Made by a program: the position numbers and the translations under genes | Shown here: piece after piece, positions 13,013 through 20,323 of the stretch | How the letters are laid out: every line of letters begins with the position of its first letter | How positions within the stretch are numbered: the first letter of the stretch is position 1 | Notes under the pieces: model-generated | Told to the model about the DNA's origin: nothing | The model's database searches: none | The model's input: only the letters and a program-made list of their open reading frames with translations | Source of the DNA: Candidatus Pantoea floridensis | Lineage (GTDB): Bacteria > Pseudomonadota > Gammaproteobacteria > Enterobacterales > Enterobacteriaceae | Length of the DNA stretch: 64,000 nt | Reading direction: 5' to 3' | Assembly: GCF_900215435.1 (NCBI RefSeq) | Contig: NZ_OCMY01000002.1 | Span: forward strand, 496,001 to 560,000

Positions 13013-13347
13013 GTAATTACAACCCTTTCGGGACGTTGAATGGGGGTTGGCTAAGTGCAACAGCAAATTGGTCATGCCGGTACGGACGCAAAATTAACTT
13101 CATAGCTAACGAACACGGATGAGTTAACTTCGCGTTGCTTATGAAGGATGACGCCTATCTTGATGGTTATTCATCGGAAAGCGGATCAGTGAGTTTCTCG
13201 CTGATAGCAGACTTTTCATAATTAGATGTCCGCAATGTGCCAGAAGCGGACATTACTTTCCTATGGTTCAAACATGTAAAATAGTCCGAATCATGCAAAA
13301 CCTTCTGGTGTTTGTCAGAGCCTGTTATTCACAACCAGCCATAATGG
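13013..13347. other. Intergenic stretch at the left edge of the island
   Basis: This 335-bp gap between the ROK gene and the NAD-epimerase gene holds no convincing gene. It begins right after the boundary repeat and contains the first copy of the double-hairpin repeat (13192-13253). Base composition becomes AT-richer than in the ROK gene. Confidence 0.6.
13192..13253 (+). repeat. Double-hairpin intergenic repeat, copy 1
   Basis: The first half resembles CGCTCATAGCGGA (here degenerate, CGCTGATAGCAGA). The second half is a perfect hairpin with arms ATGTCCGC (13226-13233) and GCGGACAT (13246-13253) around a loop containing GTGCCAGA. Seven more copies follow to 20250 in the same orientation. Confidence 0.8.
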
Positions 13348-14301
13348 TTAATTATCTTTCTTCAACGCGGAGGTGGCTTTCCATTCAGCGTATATACTTT
13401 CCAGCCCCTGCCTGTAACTTGTTATACGAAAGTCCGGGAAGCGCATCTTAAATTTTGATGAGTCAAAAAAATTATCAGCTTCATAGCGGGGAAGGAGTTC
13501 CCGCAGTTCACGAGGCCCTTTAGAAAATATACCCGCAATATATAAGGAGTATTTCCTCAGAACTGACCATGACGGTTCTTTTCCAAATACACTGCACGCC
13601 AGAGAAACAAACTGCGCATAGGTGATTCGTTCTTCACAACAGGGCAGATGCCATGTCTGACCGTAGGCTTCTGGCGTGTTACCCAGCAGCGCTAAAGCCC
13701 GGCTTGCATCAGGGGTCCAGATGAGCGTACGTAATGAGTCATCACGCAATGGGACGAGTGGTTTTTTTCCAGCTTTAAGTCTGTCTAAAACCAGGGCATT
13801 GGTAAAACTCTGGGTTTTCCCGGGCCCATAAAATTCAGGGGCGCGACCAATGAGTACAGGAATATCACCCCGCAGCATCTCCTCCAGAACCATATTCGCC
13901 ATCTTAGCCCGGACTCGCCCTTTTCGCCCTGATGGCTGGAACGGCATATCTTCCATCTGCAGTCTGCCGTCCTGAGGGTACATATACGTATTGTCAAAAT
14001 AGACAAAATGAGCCCCTGCTTGCCGGGTGGCATTCAGTGCATTCTGAAGCATTACAGGAAACTGCTCCTCCCAGAGGGAGGAATCCGGTGGCAGTCCTGC
14101 CGCAAAATACACAATGCGGCTTCCTTTTACCGCATCCAGAGTCTGACTGCCATCAAGCAAATCAGCCGACATAAGGGTGTCGCTTTTAGTGACTTTATGC
14201 GGATTGCGGCTGACAAGCCTCAACTCAGCACTGTAGGAATGTGTTAACTCGCGGGCAAGTTCCCGGGCAATCTGTCCGCTTGCTCCCAGAATCGTTTGCA
14301 T
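13348..14301 (-). CDS. NAD-dependent epimerase/dehydratase-like (atypical SDR) protein
   Basis: This 317-aa protein begins MQTILGASGQIARELARELT, a Rossmann dinucleotide site of extended or atypical short-chain dehydrogenases (GASGxIG type). VYFDNTYMYP in the middle resembles the catalytic Tyr region of nucleotide-sugar epimerases, but the canonical YxxxK is not obvious. It probably reduces or isomerises a small metabolite or acts as an NAD(P)H sensor. Its promoter has the layout of a MerR-controlled promoter and it is divergent from a MerR gene, so it is probably induced by that regulator. Confidence 0.75.
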   Translation of the reverse strand: MQTILGASGQIARELARELTHSYSAELRLVSRNPHKVTKSDTLMSADLLDGSQTLDAVKGSRIVYFAAGLPPDSSLWEEQFPVMLQNALNATRQAGAHFVYFDNTYMYPQDGRLQMEDMPFQPSGRKGRVRAKMANMVLEEMLRGDIPVLIGRAPEFYGPGKTQSFTNALVLDRLKAGKKPLVPLRDDSLRTLIWTPDASRALALLGNTPEAYGQTWHLPCCEERITYAQFVSLACSVFGKEPSWSVLRKYSLYIAGIFSKGPRELRELLPRYEADNFFDSSKFKMRFPDFRITSYRQGLESIYAEWKATSALKKDN

Positions 14302-14357
14302 TTATTTCCTCTTCATACAATTTTTGATGGAAGTCCCGGGACTTTGACTTTTTTAAA

Positions 14358-14388
14358 AGTATAAGATTAAAGTTAACTTTAATGTCAA
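14358..14388 (-). promoter_or_regulatory. MerR-type promoter and operator of the epimerase gene
   Basis: On the minus strand, TTGACA (14383-14388) and TATACT (14358-14363) are separated by 19 bp, the elongated spacing typical of MerR-controlled promoters. The spacer is occupied by a perfect 18-bp palindrome, ATTAAAGTTAACTTTAAT (14366-14383). The same layout recurs at 15949-15979 before the hydrolase gene. Confidence 0.85.
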
Positions 14389-14408
14389 GGGCGGTCACTG
14401 GAGATGAA

Positions 14409-14837
14409 ATGAAGATAGGAGATCTTGCAAAAGCGACGGGGCTTACACCTTCCCGCATCCGTTATTACGAGGCGGAAGGCCTGATAAGTGCCCCTCCCCG
14501 ACAGGATAATGGCTATCGCCATTATCCGCCTGAGACCGCCCTGATACTCATGCTTATTGACCGGGCACAGGGATTTGGATTCACGCTTGAGCAAATCCGT
14601 CAGGTATTACCTCAGGGGAAAGAAAGCTGGAACCATGAAGGATTAATTGCTTCTCTTGAATCCAGGGTTGAGGAGATCCGACTCCTGCAGCAGCAACTCA
14701 GGGAAAATCAGACCATGATACTGCATTTAATCAGCGGCATCGAAAACAGGCCGGAGGGTATTTCATGCCAGGAAAATATGTTGCGGGTTATGAGGCTAAT
14801 GCAGGTTGATACGCCGGTTCTTCATGCTATTAAGTAA
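14409..14837 (+). CDS. MerR-family transcriptional regulator
   Basis: This 142-aa regulator starts MKIGDLAKATGLTPSRIRYY, the MerR winged helix, followed by EAEGLI and a C-terminal coiled coil (about residues 75-120) for dimerisation. The ATG at 14409 has GGAG six bases upstream; the ATG at 14382 lies in the operator. It has only one C-terminal cysteine (ISCQEN) and no SoxR-type Cys cluster or metal-loop pattern, so its signal is probably an organic or redox compound. Two promoters with 19-bp spacers and matching operators flank it, so it probably controls the epimerase and hydrolase genes and itself. Confidence 0.85.
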   Translation: MKIGDLAKATGLTPSRIRYYEAEGLISAPPRQDNGYRHYPPETALILMLIDRAQGFGFTLEQIRQVLPQGKESWNHEGLIASLESRVEEIRLLQQQLRENQTMILHLISGIENRPEGISCQENMLRVMRLMQVDTPVLHAIK

Positions 14838-14928
14838 TCTGGCAAACATTGCGCCAGGTCTGTTTCAGAATGAAGAGTGAATTAACGAAGTCTGATTTGT
14901 AAGACACGGTTCCCTTGTTCACAAGCAT

Positions 14929-14971
14929 GAAGACTCCGTTACCGGTATTTTGTACCGGTAACGGAGTCTTC
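14929..14971. terminator. Long perfect hairpin between convergent MerR and hydrolase genes
   Basis: Arms of 19 bp (14929-14947 and 14953-14971, starting GAAGACTCCGTTACCGGTA) surround a 5-nt loop. It lies between converging genes and is probably a bidirectional transcription barrier, although a good T run is missing on either side. Confidence 0.7.
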
Positions 14972-14995
14972 AACTTATATATTTTATCAGCTGGA

Positions 14996-15826
14996 TTAAC
15001 TGTTTATAAATGCAAGTAGATCTGCGTTCACCTGATCCGCGTGTGTAGTGGGTATGCCGTGGGGAGCTCCTTTATAAGTATTGAGTTTCCCATTTTGGAC
15101 CAGTTCAGCCGACAACTTACCGGAATCATCATAAGGGACAACCTGATCGTCATCGCCATGAATCACCATTACGGGGATGGATATTCCTTTGAGGTCTTCA
15201 GTAAAGTCGGTTTGCGAAAAAGCAACGATCCCATCGTAATGCGCTTTGGCGCTACCCATCATGCCCTGTCGCCACCAGTTATAAATGACAGCTTCGGAAG
15301 GAGCCGAACCGGAGCGGTTAAATCCATAAAATGGTCCAGCAGGAACGTCATAATAGAACTGAGCGCGATTAGCAGCCAGTTGCGCCTGCAGGTCATCAAA
15401 TACTGTTTTCGGCGTTCCCTGTGGATTATTGTCGGTTTTCACCATCAATGGCGGTACGGCACTGATTAACACGGCTTTTGAAACTTTATCTTCACCATGC
15501 CTGGCTATATAACGTACAACTTCGCCACCGCCGGTTGAATGGCCAACATGCATCGCGCCTTGTACATTAAGGTGTTCCACAACGGCTGCAACATCATCTG
15601 CGTAATGATCCATGTCGTGGCCATCCCACACCTGTCCTGAGCGACCATGCCCGCGCCGGTCATGTGCCACAACGCGGAAGCCTTTATTTACGAAGAATAA
15701 CATCTGGGCATCCCAGTCATCACTGCTCAGAGGCCAGCCATGATGGAAAAAAATAACTTTACCATCCCTTGGACCCCAGTCCTTGTAGAAGATTTCAACG
15801 CCATCGCGAGTTGTTACATAACCCAT
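14996..15826 (-). CDS. Alpha/beta hydrolase, non-heme chloroperoxidase/esterase type
   Basis: This 276-aa protein has the alpha/beta hydrolase order: oxyanion region HHGWPLSSDDW, nucleophile S97 in GHSTGGG, acid in IHGDDDQVVP and His in GAPHGIP. These match cofactor-free chloroperoxidase-type perhydrolases (for example the Pseudomonas family), which also act as esterases. There is no signal peptide, so it is cytosolic. Its promoter (15949-15979) has a MerR-type 19-bp spacer and an operator like that of the epimerase gene, which suggests one regulon with the MerR gene. Confidence 0.87.
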   Translation of the reverse strand: MGYVTTRDGVEIFYKDWGPRDGKVIFFHHGWPLSSDDWDAQMLFFVNKGFRVVAHDRRGHGRSGQVWDGHDMDHYADDVAAVVEHLNVQGAMHVGHSTGGGEVVRYIARHGEDKVSKAVLISAVPPLMVKTDNNPQGTPKTVFDDLQAQLAANRAQFYYDVPAGPFYGFNRSGSAPSEAVIYNWWRQGMMGSAKAHYDGIVAFSQTDFTEDLKGISIPVMVIHGDDDQVVPYDDSGKLSAELVQNGKLNTYKGAPHGIPTTHADQVNADLLAFINS

Positions 15827-15948
15827 GTCACTTCTCCACTCAGATAAACTGTCAATGGACTGTGCTTATCCTGCTCAACTCTTCGTAAAGGGCAGAACGA
15901 ACTGATAAGTACCGATCCTTTCACCGGCTCTGAATCAACCGTGACTGT

Positions 15949-15979
15949 AGTATAGGTTTAAAGTCAACTTGAAGGTCAA
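15949..15979 (-). promoter_or_regulatory. MerR-type promoter and operator of the alpha/beta hydrolase gene
   Basis: On the minus strand TTGACC (15974-15979) and TATACT (15949-15954) are 19 bp apart. The spacer TTCAAGTTGACTTTAAACC contains the same AAGTTnACTT core as the palindrome at 14366-14383. It lies about 120 bp upstream of the hydrolase start. Confidence 0.8.
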
Positions 15980-16139
15980 TGAGGGTTGTGAGATTGTTTG
16001 AGGGCTTTGAGTGTAGGTTACAAAAAACCTCTCCGGGAGAGCAGGGGATTTCTGACTCAGGTATCGCAGGAAGGAGAGCTCATGGTTTGCTAGAGTCATG
16101 ATTTTGACTTCAAAAAGCAGGACTTGCTATATCACGCAG

Positions 16140-16202
16140 TCTGCTTTTCGCTCATAGCGGACCTTAGCCTACCGTCAGTCCGCTTTGTGCCAAAAGCGGA
16201 CA
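16140..16202 (+). repeat. Double-hairpin intergenic repeat, copy 2
   Basis: It contains TTCGCTCATAGCGGACC and then a hairpin GTCCGCT (16178-16184) / AGCGGAC (16195-16201) around a loop containing GTGCC. It is among the best preserved copies. Confidence 0.85.
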
Positions 16203-16301
16203 TTTGCATCAACTGTTGGCACCCATACTTTTATGTAACATATGAGTGTTGGGCACCTCTAAAGGGGTCGAGACTGCCTCATGGTATCAGCCAGCAAATT
16301 A

Positions 16302-16612
16302 CTACAAACGGGATACGGTTTGGACGTTATGCTGAAAGACGTAAGGATCTGATAGCAGCTGAAATTGCTCGTCATCCGGATAGGTAACTGCGATCTGGAA
16401 CTGTTCGCCTGCGAATGCTTTCACTGCCTCAATATCTTTCCAATAAGTTGCCAGAAAGAAATGCTCACAATTACCCTGCGTCTCTCTGCGTACATATGTC
16501 CCCAGATTTCCGGGTGTCCTCTCTAAATGTTCAACACCGGTTTTTGCAAATGATGTGCAAAACCTTCTGCATGCTTGACTGGTACGCATCCATGCCATGT
16601 TCTTACAATCAT
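16302..16612 (-). pseudogene. Frameshifted antibiotic biosynthesis monooxygenase-like (ABM domain) gene
   Basis: Two overlapping frames together give one ABM-type small monooxygenase. The first part reads MIVRTWHGCVPVKHAEGFAH and HLQK, and the second resumes at TGVEHLERTPGNLGTYVRRE and continues through FFLATYWKDIEAVKAFAGE. The switch falls in a T5 run (A5 on the coding strand, about 16541-16545); one more A would restore a frame of about 104 residues. ABM proteins are dimeric, cofactor-poor oxygenases or heme/quinone-handling enzymes. The break could be a true mutation or a sequencing error in the homopolymer. Repeat copies 2 and 3 flank it. Confidence 0.75.
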
Positions 16613-16728
16613 GTTTCTACCCATATGTTTTAGAAGGGTTTTAAATATAGCATGTAGGATGGATGTGGGATTCGTGAGTGGGTTGTTATGTCTAATGTGG
16701 CATAACATCCCTATCGCCATGATTTTGA

Positions 16729-16792
16729 CGTCCGCTCCTCACTCATAGCAGACATAAGCCTTACGTCAGTCCGTTTTGTGACAGAAGCAGAG
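16729..16792 (+). repeat. Double-hairpin intergenic repeat, copy 3 (degenerate)
   Basis: It begins GTCCGCTCCTCACTCATAGC and continues to a degenerate second half (CAGTCCGTTTTGTGACAGAA). Upstream bases ATTTTGACGT are shared with copy 8, so the conserved unit extends beyond the two hairpins. Confidence 0.7.
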
Positions 16793-16882
16793 GTTGTGCG
16801 TTTCATTATCAAAAAAGCAAGATTGAACATTCAGAGGAGGATGGTAAGGTCATTGTTTGCTCATTTCCAAAATGGCTCTTAT

Positions 16883-17260
16883 ATGAACAATGTGTTACGG
16901 AAGAATTATCCCGAATTAGGTGAAGTAAAGGCTCCTTATGTTCATGCTGTAAAACATGGCGGTACGCTCTACATTTCCGGATTGACTGCTTTTGGCACAG
17001 TTGCTCAACATAAAGGCATTGCTGAGCAGGCTGAAGAAATATTTTGCCAAATCAGGAAAATAATCAGCGCAGAAGGCTCAGATTTTTCAGCCCTGATTAA
17101 AGTGACGATATTCATTACCTCTTTTAAAGAGATAGACGAGCTACGCAAAGTATTGTACCGAAATTACGGTGATCACTTGCCAGCCAGCTCGCTTGTTGAA
17201 GTTAGCCGCCTCTTTTCACCTGACCTCTCGATTGAAATTGAGGCTATATTCGGCCTTTGA
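16883..17260 (+). CDS. RidA (YjgF/YER057c/UK114) family protein
   Basis: The 125-aa protein starts MNNVLRKNYPELGEVKAPYV and contains the RidA core GGTLYISGLTAF, IRKIISAEGSDFSALIKVTIF and the C-terminal SRLFSPDLSIEIEAIF. RidA proteins hydrolyse reactive enamine/imine intermediates; the usual substrate-binding Arg near the C-terminus (IExxA context) is not clearly present, so a different activity is possible. The start is uncertain: an earlier ATG at 16841 directly follows AGGAGG, but family proteins begin near 16883. It stands alone between repeat copies 3 and 4. Confidence 0.78.
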   Translation: MNNVLRKNYPELGEVKAPYVHAVKHGGTLYISGLTAFGTVAQHKGIAEQAEEIFCQIRKIISAEGSDFSALIKVTIFITSFKEIDELRKVLYRNYGDHLPASSLVEVSRLFSPDLSIEIEAIFGL

Positions 17261-17335
17261 TTTATTGCTCATAACCGGATAGCGATAACTATTCGGTTCT
17301 TACGCCGTTTTATTAAACCCTCTTTAAGACATAGC

Positions 17336-17399
17336 GTCCGCTGTTCGCTCATAGCTGACCTTAGATCTCACATGAACTTTATCGATGTCCGCAGACATC
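17336..17399 (+). repeat. Double-hairpin intergenic repeat, copy 4 (truncated second hairpin)
   Basis: GTCCGCTGTTCGCTCATAGC is followed by a shortened second half, GATGTCCGCAGACATC, which lacks the GTGCC loop. Its right end overlaps the last codons of the small gene at 17379-17567. Confidence 0.7.
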
Positions 17400-17567
17400 A
17401 ACTTTTTCGCCAGTCAGTCTCCCAACCGCCTCTATTGCGTCTGGATCACCATGCCAGGCCATGCAACTTAAACAATCTCCGCCACAGTCTAAATTCAATG
17501 TGTCTGGTGTTTTACTCATTGGCTGATTACAGGTCTGGCAATTGTTTTCTTTCACTGGAAGTGGCAT
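17379..17567 (-). CDS. Small cysteine-rich protein, probable zinc-binding
   Basis: This 62-aa frame reads MPLPVKENNCQTCNQPMSKT followed by a segment ending LDCGGDCLSCMAWHGDPD. Five cysteines fall in a CxxC...CxxxCxxC pattern, which suggests one zinc ribbon. I recall similar unnamed small proteins in enterobacteria but cannot give a function. The last residues (VDVCGHR) are translated from repeat copy 4, so the original C-terminus may have been altered by the repeat. The ribosome site is weak. It stands alone between repeat copies 4 and 5. Confidence 0.55.
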   Translation of the reverse strand: MPLPVKENNCQTCNQPMSKTPDTLNLDCGGDCLSCMAWHGDPDAIEAVGRLTGEKVDVCGHR

Positions 17568-17611
17568 CCGATTTTGATTTTCATTTCTATGTTACCTGAC
17601 ATATCACTCTT

Positions 17612-17671
17612 ATGTCCGCAGTTCGCTCATAGCTGACTTTCTTCTGCGTCCGCTTCGCGCCAGAAGCGGAA
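17612..17671 (+). repeat. Double-hairpin intergenic repeat, copy 5
   Basis: ATGTCCGCAGTTCGCTCATA leads into a hairpin GTCCGCT / AGCGGA around CGCGCCAGA. Same orientation as the other copies. It lies just downstream of the quinone reductase gene. Confidence 0.8.
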
Positions 17672-17710
17672 CTCAGTCACCACTTAGCGCACTGATTTTT
17701 AAGGATGCCA

Positions 17711-18694
17711 TTATATGTGTATAAGGACTTTACCGATCACTTTTGCATGTTCCACTGTATAATGAGCGTCGGCTATTTTCTCAAGCGGCAGATTTAAGCC
17801 TATTAAAGGTGCATAACTTCCAGTTTGAAGGCAGGAATTAATATCTTCTGCGCTGGCTTTTTTAACGTCCATGGGAACTTTGTATATATAGACAAAGCGG
17901 AGTACACAGCCGTGCATCATGGCTTTGAGAAGTGGAACAGAAATTGTTTCTGTTGCGCTACTCGTAGCATAAGAGCTAATAACTCCTCCTTGAGACAAAC
18001 AAGCCAGGTTGATATCAAGGTTCTCTTTCAAAGCCACATCGACAATATGATGAACCCCCTGATTATCTGTATTCGCCATGATGATATTTGCCACATCGCC
18101 AGCTGTATGGTCGAGTACTAAATCAGCACCATTAATTTTTGCTATCGCCGCTTGTTGAGCATTTCTCACCGTGGTAACAACCCATGCACCGGCCCATTTA
18201 GCTAATAAAATTGCTGCAGTTCCCACCACTCCAGCTCCGCCATGAATGAGTACCCGGCGGTCTTTAAGGTCACCGTCTGAAAAAAGGCAGCGGTGAGCGG
18301 TAAGGGCTGGAATTCCAAGTGAAGCGCCTGTTTCAAACGAAACATTATCGGGGAGTCTTACAGCCTGACTTGTTGGTACGACAACGAACTCTGCTGCCGT
18401 TCCTGACGCCCGTCCATATTGTGCTTCATAAAGCCAGACACGCTCATTAAGTCGTTCTGACGATACGTTCTCACCAACTGCTTCAATCACACCTGCGCCA
18501 TCCTGATGGGGAATGATGCGGGCATATGGCATGCTCGCAGAGAAAGCTGTTCTTGCCTTGATGTCTGATGGATTGACTCCTGAAACGTAAATACGCACGA
18601 GTACTTCATTCGGACCAGGGCTGGGTTTAGAAACTTCACCAATTTTCAGTACATCATATGCATTACCTTGAGTGTCATAATATGCGGCTTTCAT
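17711..18694 (-). CDS. NADPH:quinone reductase-like MDR-family oxidoreductase
   Basis: This 327-aa medium-chain dehydrogenase/reductase has the GroES-like N-terminus (VLVRIYVSGVNPSDIKAR) and the NADPH motif HGGAGVVGTAAILLAKW. The structural zinc cysteines of true alcohol dehydrogenases are missing, as in QOR/zeta-crystallin enzymes. It probably reduces quinones or unsaturated carbonyls. It is divergent from an HxlR regulator, a frequent arrangement for aldehyde- or quinone-responsive reductases, so induction by an electrophile is likely. Confidence 0.85.
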   Translation of the reverse strand: MKAAYYDTQGNAYDVLKIGEVSKPSPGPNEVLVRIYVSGVNPSDIKARTAFSASMPYARIIPHQDGAGVIEAVGENVSSERLNERVWLYEAQYGRASGTAAEFVVVPTSQAVRLPDNVSFETGASLGIPALTAHRCLFSDGDLKDRRVLIHGGAGVVGTAAILLAKWAGAWVVTTVRNAQQAAIAKINGADLVLDHTAGDVANIIMANTDNQGVHHIVDVALKENLDINLACLSQGGVISSYATSSATETISVPLLKAMMHGCVLRFVYIYKVPMDVKKASAEDINSCLQTGSYAPLIGLNLPLEKIADAHYTVEHAKVIGKVLIHI

Positions 18695-18703
18695 TAGTTG
18701 TAA

Positions 18704-18813
18704 CCCTATGTATGAATTGAAAATAAATCATTATACGTTTTAGTCTTGTTCCTTGGTGTACTTTAAGCTCTATGGATAGTATTTAAAAGTAGGCACTCTT
18801 ATGATACATAGGG
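18704..18813. promoter_or_regulatory. Symmetric inverted repeat in the quinone reductase/HxlR divergent promoter
   Basis: CCCTATGTAT (18704-18713) and ATACATAGGG (18804-18813) are exact reverse complements placed about 90 bp apart, one near each gene start. They may be paired binding sites for the HxlR protein. This is inference from position. Confidence 0.45.
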
Positions 18814-18845
18814 ATAATAAGTATACTAATGGAGTGTCTAAATTG

Positions 18846-19187
18846 ATGAAAATCGAGGAAGAACAGAATTACCAATGCACCGTAGAAGCAACCATTACAG
18901 TAGCCGGGGGTAAATGGAAACCGTTGATCATTTATTATCTGCTCAGTGGAACCAAGCGATTTGGAGAACTTCGTAAACTCATAGGTAGTGTGACGCAGCG
19001 TTCATTGACGCTACAACTTAGAGAACTTGAGGCTCATGGCATTATTTCCCGGAAAATATTTGCAGAGGTCCCCCCACGAGTTGAATATTCACTCACTGAA
19101 TTAGGTTTTACTCTCGCTCCTGTACTCGAGACGATGAAAGCTTGGGGAGATGCCTATGTATCCAGGCAACGAAAAAAGGATCATTAA
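18846..19187 (+). CDS. HxlR-family transcriptional regulator
   Basis: This 113-aa winged-helix regulator has the HxlR signature: YQCTVEATITVAGGKWKPLI near the N-terminus with a conserved Cys, then RFGELRKLIGSVTQRSLTLQ and YSLTELG. HxlR/HypR/QorR proteins use that N-terminal cysteine to sense aldehydes, quinones or oxidants. ATG 18846 is used here; an in-frame ATG at 18801 would add 15 residues but has no clear ribosome site. It is divergent from the quinone reductase gene, its probable target. Confidence 0.85.
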   Translation: MKIEEEQNYQCTVEATITVAGGKWKPLIIYYLLSGTKRFGELRKLIGSVTQRSLTLQLRELEAHGIISRKIFAEVPPRVEYSLTELGFTLAPVLETMKAWGDAYVSRQRKKDH

Positions 19188-19263
19188 TTATGTACCCGTT
19201 TTTGGTGTTGAGTAACCAGCTCACCATTGCGCAGGACATTCCGATGTAAATATCCATTCTTAG

Positions 19264-19300
19264 CTTCCGCTTTTCGCTCACAGCGGACCTTCAGCGTCCA
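19264..19300 (+). repeat. Double-hairpin intergenic repeat, copy 6 (first half only)
   Basis: CTTCCGCTTTTCGCTCACAG followed by CGGACCTT matches the first hairpin; the second hairpin is missing. Confidence 0.7.
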
Positions 19301-19388
19301 ATAACCATTAGTTTGCATTCCGACGAGTTACCGTTTGGCTGATACGCTGGTTCGTTAAAACCTGATCAGAGACGAGTAAAACGGTGAA

Positions 19389-19453
19389 CTTCCGCTTCTC
19401 GCTCATACCGCACAGGGCTCTCATATCTGTCCGCTGCGTGCCAGAAGCGGACA
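19389..19453 (+). repeat. Double-hairpin intergenic repeat, copy 7
   Basis: It begins CTTCCGCTTCTCGCTCATAC and ends with hairpin GTCCGCT / AGCGGAC. About 58 bases from TCGCTCATAC to GGACAT match copy 8 with only three differences. Copies 7 and 8 flank the GNAT gene as direct repeats. Confidence 0.85.
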
Positions 19454-19521
19454 TCTGCGTTCTGGGCCAACACAAACGGGTGAGCGAAAGTAGTCTTATG
19501 TAAAGCGACTGAATTGCTCTC

Positions 19522-20058
19522 TTACTCTGACTTTTTATCCCATTCGGCGTGAGTCAGTGTAAACAGCATGCTGGCGGGCGCATTTGTCACATCCTGAATG
19601 TCCCGTACATATCTGAGTCCGGAATTAGTCAGGACTTTTTGTGATGCCAGGTGGTCTGCTCTTACTACTGCAGAGATATCCGGCAGTTTTAGCTCACCAA
19701 ATCCATAACTGACCGCATGGTTAGCAAACTCTGTCGCCAGCCCTCTTCCCCACGACTCAGCAGAGAACCGATATCCTAGGTTATTGATAGTGGTATTGGC
19801 ATAACTGCGGATATTCAGCCCGCCAAAACCGATGAGCCTTTTAGGATCATCGTTCAGCGAGATAGCCCAGTTTCCGAAACCGTAATCTTCCCAGTGTTTA
19901 AGCCAGCGAGCCAAAACATCACGGGCATAATCAATATCAGGATATGGGCCTGCGGGATTAAATGTATTCGTGGCAGGATCGCCATAAATTCTGAAAAGGT
20001 CATCTGCGTCTGAGGTGATTACAGGCCGAAGATGCAGTCGGGAGGTGGTTAGCCGCAA
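19522..20058 (-). CDS. GNAT-family N-acetyltransferase (RimJ/RimL type)
   Basis: This 178-aa protein starts MRLTTSRLHLRPVITSDADD, typical of the RimJ/RimL branch, and has an acetyl-CoA region ESWGRGLATEFANHAV (Q/RxxGxG/A type). Such enzymes acetylate protein N-termini, amino acids or toxic compounds; the substrate here is unknown. It is a single gene bounded on both sides by nearly identical repeat copies, which suggests gain as a unit. Confidence 0.83.
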   Translation of the reverse strand: MRLTTSRLHLRPVITSDADDLFRIYGDPATNTFNPAGPYPDIDYARDVLARWLKHWEDYGFGNWAISLNDDPKRLIGFGGLNIRSYANTTINNLGYRFSAESWGRGLATEFANHAVSYGFGELKLPDISAVVRADHLASQKVLTNSGLRYVRDIQDVTNAPASMLFTLTHAEWDKKSE

Positions 20059-20183
20059 AATTTCTCCTGAGTTTTTGATTCATTCAATGAGTTATCTTAC
20101 TGTTTTTATAGTCAGAAAATTTCGGCTTCACAACAGCACTGTTATGTTTAATTTGGCAAAATTTGCATGTCGCCATCATTTTG

Positions 20184-20250
20184 ACGTCTGCTCCTCGCTC
20201 ATACCGCACAGGGCTCTCATATCTGTCCGCTCTGTGCCAGAAACGGACAT
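20184..20250 (+). repeat. Double-hairpin intergenic repeat, copy 8
   Basis: It starts GACGTCTGCTCCTCGCTCAT and ends GTCCGCTCTGTGCCAGAAAC plus GGACAT. It is almost identical to copy 7 and has the same orientation. Confidence 0.85.
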
Positions 20251-20323
20251 TGCTAATTTTAAGGTGCATTATTTAAAAGCGGGAAATTTTAAATACCCCA
20301 TGAGATAGTATGGTCTTCCCTTG

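Follow-up and report, generated by a model that had tools for sequence, protein, structure and literature searches.

The 64,000-nucleotide stretch of Candidatus Pantoea floridensis DNA analysed here (the window: positions 496001-560000 of contig NZ_OCMY01000002.1, called C2, in a 5.45-Mb genome of five contigs) contains an array of small gene units separated by a double-hairpin repeat of 65-70 bp. Judged from sequence comparison, this array probably consists of gene modules that are swapped at pairs of inverted sites by a small tyrosine recombinase dedicated to the task. The comparison shows that exchange takes place at both hairpins, that units are gained and lost as blocks, that the recombinase gene of relatives lies between the half-sites, and that spacer and recombinase are interchangeable. 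The original prediction, made from the letters of the window alone, had reported eight copies of the repeat, all pointing one way at the boundaries of unrelated units, and had likened them to a cassette array. The observation is confirmed, and the cassette-array interpretation is supported with corrections.

The repeat consists of a first hairpin, h1 (GTCCGCTT-TTCGCTCATA-GCGGAC), and a second, h2 (GTCCGCTT-TGTGCCA-GAAGCGGAC), referred to here as half-sites. Each has short inverted arms (GTCCGCT...AGCGGAC) around a conserved asymmetric centre, CGCTCAT in h1 and TGTGCC in h2, and h1 is nearly the reverse complement of h2, with agreement at 20 of 24 positions. The centres are about as conserved as the arms, which is more than a mere stem-loop would require, and the flanks are low in information. 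Between h1 and h2 lies a spacer of about 15 bp that is identical in just 0.4% of unrelated pairs, and a degenerate (A/G)TT box follows 3′ of the repeat. A weak signal, a TTGCATCATGGTATGTTAATTTACG-like motif, is found just 3′ of h2. Of 116 distinct downstream flanks, 7 match it at 14 or more of 21 positions, whereas none of 115 upstream flanks does so and shuffles do at a rate of 0.43%. Its carriers include L058:10174, L078:12997, L091:6006 and L093:7863 (loci are numbered with an L), and it may be an accessory site, a promoter or an end that units have in common. Just upstream of h1, seven copies have an extra hairpin like TGTTATGTCTAATGTGGCATAACA (window 16684-16727 and 20140-20183; L046:905, L046:5048, L061:936, L088:5552 and L094:11575, the last weak), and at least some of these hairpins follow different genes.

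A search of the window with a 13-mer core at up to two mismatches gives 11 matches where 2.34 are expected (at most 6 in 100 shuffles), and eight of these are the copies of the original prediction, all on the + strand. Six are complete double hairpins: 13187..13256 (h1 13189-13212 with a decayed outer arm, h2 13228-13251; 74.3 bits), 16137..16206 (h1 16139-16162, h2 16178-16201; 83.9 bits), 16728..16797 (h1 16730-16753, h2 16769-16792; 73.9 bits), 17612..17676 (short spacer; h1 17614-17637, h2 17648-17671; 67.4 bits), 19388..19457 and 20184..20253. The other two, also on the + strand, had been described as double hairpins and are single h1 sites, at 17336..17359 (h2 absent or decayed) and 19265..19288. 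A covariance model built from the six complete copies gives 17 window matches at E ≤1. The six building copies score 67-84 bits, and the partial copies at 17334 and 19263 score 28.0 and 23.4 bits; of the remaining nine, six are shadows of the near-palindrome on the reverse strand and three are weak. Over the whole genome the same model gives 40 matches at E ≤1, reverse-strand shadows included. These lie in the window cluster, at C2:689-692 kb and at C1:3006-3017 kb, each with one orientation (shadows aside), and on contig C3 (181 kb), which has both orientations at separate places. A position weight matrix made from 64 copies found no match in 1,005,219 bases of mononucleotide-shuffled sequence, and a scan of Rfam gave no match at the gathering threshold.

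All eight window copies point the same way while the units between them lie on both strands, as had been noted, and the agreement exceeds the 1 in 128 then estimated for chance. Among 47 Pantoea loci, which were picked around clusters and include some arrays homologous between strains, neighbouring copies no more than 6 kb apart are co-oriented in 95 of 95 cases (score ≥38; median spacing 1.6 kb). With weaker copies admitted, a score of 30 gives 100 of 101 pairs in agreement and a score of 24 gives 106 of 108, and one pair 6-8 kb apart disagrees (L050). Open reading frames (ORFs) of at least 90 amino acids between copies, called mechanically, run along the repeat in 89 cases and against it in 76, and 33 of 74 distinct inter-repeat segments have ORFs on both strands. 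A replication-strand cause of the shared orientation was judged unlikely, as the W01 arrays, about 25 kb apart on a single plasmid, oppose each other (65.6 kb minus, 90.5 kb plus).

Breakpoints between related loci concentrate at the repeat. Of 592 BLAST alignment ends obtained from comparisons among Pantoea loci, 156 lie no more than 60 bp from the centre of a repeat, compared with 2.44% of random points placed on those loci. Eighteen comparisons of filled and empty loci yielded 12 empty sites (L075 and L086 represent the same site in two strains), and 8 of the 12 have a half-site overlapping the junction, in most cases with 23-26 bp of shared sequence; the proposal that units should be present or absent as blocks between relatives is borne out at these sites. 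On the filled side a half-site is recognized at seven or fewer mismatches in 8 of the 18 ends checked, against 3.1% of random 120-nt windows, and the remaining ten ends belong to the L078, L085 and L050/L079 comparisons. The L078 case is a 2.1-kb insertion by which Pantoea agglomerans plasmids differ (L078:4503-4511, compared with L076, L084, L087, L091 and L094), which has a 9-bp overlap, AATGATGAA, away from any half-site and looks like an ordinary insertion sequence or transposon.

The position of exchange within the repeat can be followed in 152 copies that were compared pairwise by upstream flank, spacer and downstream flank. Mosaic copies are common: 53 pairs share the upstream and not the downstream flank, 37 pairs the reverse, and 98 pairs (which are not independent) share only the middle of the repeat. 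Among the last are window copies 19388 and 20184, with 38 identical bases (19398-19435 and 20194-20231) between outer arms and neighbours that differ. Linkage was expressed as (identity − background)/(1 − background), averaged over families of shared flanks. Where spacer and downstream flank are shared, linkage is 1.00 in the right arm of h1, 0.58 in its centre and 0.16 in its left arm (9 pairs, 3 families). Where upstream flank and spacer are shared, it declines across h2 from 0.93 in the left arm to 0.84 in the centre, 0.51 in the right arm and 0.06 in the 3′ box (36 pairs, 4 families), and where only the downstream flank is shared it rises over the same elements from 0.13 to 0.35, 0.60 and 0.76 (26 pairs, 12 families). 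These profiles, together with the pairs that share the middle alone, indicate that each hairpin is an exchange point and that the middle is itself a module; the outer arms travel with the adjacent genes, and the middle moves independently of both flanks. The likeness to cassettes lacking an attC core stands, with exchange inside the hairpins and not at the 3′ box. The cassette-like character of the array is likewise upheld by junctions at half-sites and by units that recur elsewhere with other neighbours, with the amendment that the joining sites are the hairpins separately and not the repeat as a whole.

The original prediction had also suggested looking for a linked recombinase, and a tyrosine recombinase is indeed present at the same sites in relatives. 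The reference protein, of 200 residues, is encoded between repeats 90490 and 93082 of a P. agglomerans array (NZ_CP034149.1). It matches the PF00589 catalytic domain from residue 35 onwards (E 7.1e-19), and R51, K79, H148, R151, H174 and Y183, which we take to be the R-K-H-R-H-Y catalytic set of tyrosine recombinases, are invariant in 14 aligned sequences. The NCBIfam models that it matches best are those of XerA, XerC and a DNA invertase, with scores of 59.4, 52.7 and 34.2 bits, all far under the respective model cut-offs of 220, 335 and 222 bits, and a sequence search of the PDB found no relative at E 0.001. Homologues number at least 7997 at E 1e-5 (7999 candidates scored). One of them, P0117, has a C-terminal extension ending in ALCQKQTF that reads like a translated h2 site following the gene.

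A contig search gave 192 relatives of the recombinase (here also called the integrase), and the best 80 of these, which make up 79 loci, were analysed. The Enterobacterales set of 44 loci comprises 43 of these 79 and L075, with near-duplicates that include L117/L119/L120 and L127/L157. Upstream of the integrase, 40 of the 44 loci have an h1-like site (37 of them at offset -62/-63), and downstream of it 38 have an h2-like site (36 at +21/+22); in 34 the gene is enclosed by both at no more than eight mismatches each. Over all 79 loci, control searches with the reversed consensus gave 0 and 0 sites, and with the swapped consensus 5 and 1. The recombinase gene sits where the common repeat has its spacer of about 15 bp. 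Information content is 1.04 bits per base in the outer arm, 1.58 in the centre and 1.31 in the inner arm of the left flank, and 1.60, 1.63 and 1.12 in the inner arm, centre and outer arm of the right flank; such greater conservation of inner arms and centres than of outer arms is what entry of the module into many different half-sites would be expected to produce. Of 68 complete repeats found no more than 10 kb from an integrase, 64 lie on its strand and 4 opposite, and at least one such repeat is present at 30 of 43 integrase loci.

Integrase-bearing and spacer-type forms also meet in the same sequence contexts. When 87 integrase-module flanks were compared with 126 loci, five were found to abut a spacer-type repeat of another genome in matching orientation, namely the upstream flanks of L075 and L156 and the downstream flanks of L123, L126 (a low-scoring copy) and L135; an L154 flank also abuts a repeat, with strands that disagree, and was excluded from the count. 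In Pantoea anthophila (L123) the unit directly after the integrase is the ABM unit of the window, with 83% identity over 516 bp, and the alignment starts exactly at TGTGCCA, the h2 centre (window 16186-16192), preceded by unrelated sequence. Among 119 genomes of the family the repeat occurs in 9 of 11 that bear the integrase and 34 of 108 that are free of it (p 0.0017), or in 7 of 7 and 36 of 112 if only full-length integrase matches are counted (p 0.0006); these p-values are indicative, as the genomes are related. Within the genus all seven integrase-bearing genomes carry the repeat, two of them with only partial integrase genes.

The repeat is present in 20 of 24 genomes of the genus (the source genome included), in 0 of 16 genomes of other families, and in 43 of the 119 genera of the GTDB family (one genome per genus, strict filter), and an order-wide sample, also strictly filtered, has it in 6 of 148 genomes, all within the family. 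Plasmids with the repeat number 473 records, chiefly from Klebsiella (138), Enterobacter (136) and Pantoea (133). Of 5426 Escherichia coli genomes, 371 have a match, usually a single one, which in 155 extends over at least 80% of the repeat. A single-site pattern at up to two mismatches occurs in 6 of 200 genomes of the phylum, four in the family of the window and two elsewhere in the class; the expectation of many such hairpins in alphaproteobacteria was not borne out by this sample.

In the mechanism proposed, the recombinase module would have the form h1-int-h2, and the common 70-bp repeat would be the form with only a spacer of about 15 bp in place of the gene. The recombinase would pair identical centres, h1 with h1 or h2 with h2, between direct copies, and excision would give predicted circular intermediates made of a gene module and one repeat, which could insert at any other copy of the repeat. 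We infer the cutting enzyme as well as the exact bases cleaved. Insertion of circles at like sites would account for the single orientation of each array, for crossovers in the hairpins and for a middle that moves independently.

Several results weigh against this reading. Four of the 12 empty sites have a junction without an overlapping half-site: in L050 and L079 a half-site is merely close by, and L078 and L085 have none. Copies that share only the upstream flank give a flat h1 profile (0.63, 0.82 and 0.50; 10 pairs, 7 families), and the right arm of h2 keeps a linkage of 0.51 to the upstream flank in four families, so the breakpoints are localised to hairpins and not to a single base. The source genome has no homologue of the recombinase at E 1e-10, and the same holds for 34 of the 43 repeat-bearing genomes in the family sample, the source included; since the genome lacks the enzyme, the array of the window is now orphan or served in trans. 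Two integrase-bearing genomes are without the repeat, both with short gene fragments only. Many Alteromonadales integrase loci have weak h1/h2-like flanks or none, and two alphaproteobacterial and one betaproteobacterial plasmid loci with homologues have no h1 or h2 within six mismatches. The quinone reductase/HxlR pair of the window is found in a Rahnella plasmid (L193) with no repeat in the 7.5 kb compared, which is the occurrence of the same genes without repeats that the original prediction had named as evidence to the contrary.

The integrase loci, mostly of Alteromonadales, were also searched for recurrent hairpins with perfect 6-bp arms, and none like h1/h2 was found. In five Pseudoalteromonas loci (L171, L173, L174, L176 and L177) the sequence TCGCTCAT is kept 109 bp upstream of the integrase match, with an inner arm ACCCGAA and outer arms that differ. 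These flanks suggest a sister system with other arms in Alteromonadales.

The repeat might instead be a dispersed intergenic element of the repetitive extragenic palindrome or bacterial interspersed mosaic element kind (REP/BIME), or of the miniature inverted-repeat transposable element (MITE) kind, perhaps an integrase-less remnant of h1-int-h2, with units recombined by RecA or by chance. Its presence in 43 of 119 genera and the lack of an integrase in 34 of 43 repeat-bearing genomes fit such an element, and because the half-sites are the most conserved blocks, homologous exchange would break there too. Against this, imperfect sites of 24 bp are short for RecA exchange, the middle moves independently of both flanks in 98 pairs, all 95 neighbouring pairs within 6 kb are co-oriented, and these same half-sites enclose the recombinase and are more conserved in their inner arms than in their outer ones. 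On balance this explanation is unlikely. An array of dif modules worked by the host XerC/XerD would likewise explain why many repeat-bearing genomes have no small recombinase, and modules between inverted site pairs are known from the dif modules of Acinetobacter, as given in the available part of PMC6449649. Against this, h1 and h2 match the E. coli dif sequence at 10 of 28 positions, no better than shuffles, 62% and 64% of which do as well; the two arms repeat a single sequence in inverted form, with no C/D pair; and a dedicated recombinase is linked to the site, all of which makes the dif reading highly improbable.

The least probable account takes the array for an integron remnant, a cluster of attC sites lacking an integrase (CALIN), with the repeat as attC site. 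Uniform orientation, small gene units, a long imperfect inverted repeat and the degenerate 3′ (A/G)TT box are all features that such a remnant would have, and the AAC...GTT-like outer boxes had suggested an attC identity, which was dropped when breakpoints proved to lie inside the hairpins. None of the 24 genomes of the genus has an integron integrase IntI (TIGR02249) scoring over the curated cut-off, compared with 12 of 16 genomes of other families; ORFs run both along (89) and against (76) the repeat; no Rfam family matches at the gathering threshold; and exchange occurs inside both hairpins, with linkage of the 3′ box at 0.06 to the upstream and 0.76 to the downstream flank. Exchange by a dedicated recombinase at paired half-sites remains the favoured reading.

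The repeats of the window delimit six units. Unit 1 (13257..16136) encodes an NAD-dependent epimerase (−, 13348-14301), a MerR regulator (+, 14409-14837) and an alpha/beta hydrolase (−, 14996-15826); between regulator and hydrolase, at 14928-14972, lies a perfect 20-bp inverted repeat with a 5-nt loop that is terminator-like. Unit 2 (16207..16727) has a short ABM-type ORF (−, 16302-16598) scoring 21.3 bits, under the Pfam cut-off of 23.1. Unit 3 (16798..17335, +) encodes a RidA family protein at 16883-17260, a position transferred from the annotation of Pantoea sp. BRR-3P, and unit 4 (17360..17611, −) a 62-residue Cys-containing ORF (17379-17567) for which Pfam has no family. Unit 5 (17677..19264) consists of an NADPH:quinone reductase (−, 17711-18694) and an HxlR regulator (+, ending at 19187), and unit 6 (19458..20183, −) of a GNAT acetyltransferase (19522-20058). 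The region is 99.5% identical to a 729-kb plasmid of BRR-3P, and a search of the E. coli collection gave nothing closely similar. Matches are found in 26 plasmid records, and unit contexts were compared in four (L191-L194) as well as in the near-identical BRR-3P. The GNAT unit recurs with other neighbours in P. agglomerans pCB1C (L191) between repeats 2770 and 3696, and the RidA unit with other neighbours in P. agglomerans L192 between repeats 2907 and 3513. The stretch with the small Cys ORF likewise recurs with other neighbours, 92% identical, between two h1 sites of Pantoea vagans L194.

Chances are about even that the system forms a separate class of bacterial gene capture, beside integrons and dif modules, with a minimal recombinase inside its own composite site, an exchangeable linker, and one-direction arrays of both-strand units across Enterobacterales, mostly orphan. 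If the exchange reading is right, part of the accessory genes of Pantoea megaplasmids would have been assembled by this system, as would single loci in other Enterobacterales genera and plasmids, and searches for integrons would be expected to miss it. A concrete site, an enzyme family and a crossover prediction would make the shuffling of small units between replicons directly testable. Among the papers listed by topic searches of an open library none was on this repeat, and its core strings matched one unrelated fish paper there; subscription papers, preprints and supplements lay outside that search, so a prior description may exist. The available part of PMC5082802 does not describe this repeat.

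Among known systems, integrons and CALINs, the latter defined in the available text of PMC9024848 as attC clusters without an integrase, share with the present arrays a single direction of small units at a structured repeat and the existence of orphan arrays without a recombinase. The lack of an IntI over the cut-off in all 24 genomes of the genus sets the arrays apart from integrons, although it does not exclude a CALIN by itself, since a CALIN lacks IntI by definition. Crossover at attC, which we take to occur in the 3′ R′ box with the motif GTTRRRY, has no counterpart here, where the 3′ box stays linked to the unit downstream and it is h1 and h2 that hold the exchange points; ORFs on both strands and a recombinase gene inside the composite site are further differences. 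MITEs and REP/BIME (REPIN) elements are similarly short, palindromic, non-coding and present in many copies, and the repeat resembles a MITE in looking like the recombinase-less form of the h1-int-h2 element, whereas the linked tyrosine recombinase, the exchange of modules and the array-wide orientation are particular to the present system. The enzyme has the PF00589 catalytic domain in common with Xer and FimB/FimE-type recombinases, and its best NCBIfam matches are to XerA, XerC and a DNA invertase. Xer proteins carry an N-terminal core-binding domain, for which a protein of 200 residues with its catalytic domain starting at residue 35 has no room. The available part of PMC6449649 describes the pdif sites of Acinetobacter as 28 bp long, with 11-bp XerC and XerD arms and a 6-bp centre, and their modules as genes between inverted short sites with inverted arms in varied contexts. 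The units of the window, each between an h2 and the next h1, are likewise framed by inverted sites (20 of 24 positions). Here h1 and h2 are not dif-like when set against the E. coli dif sequence, the two arms share a single sequence, each boundary consists of a double site whose middle of about 15 bp moves alone, and the 200-residue recombinase lies between the sites.

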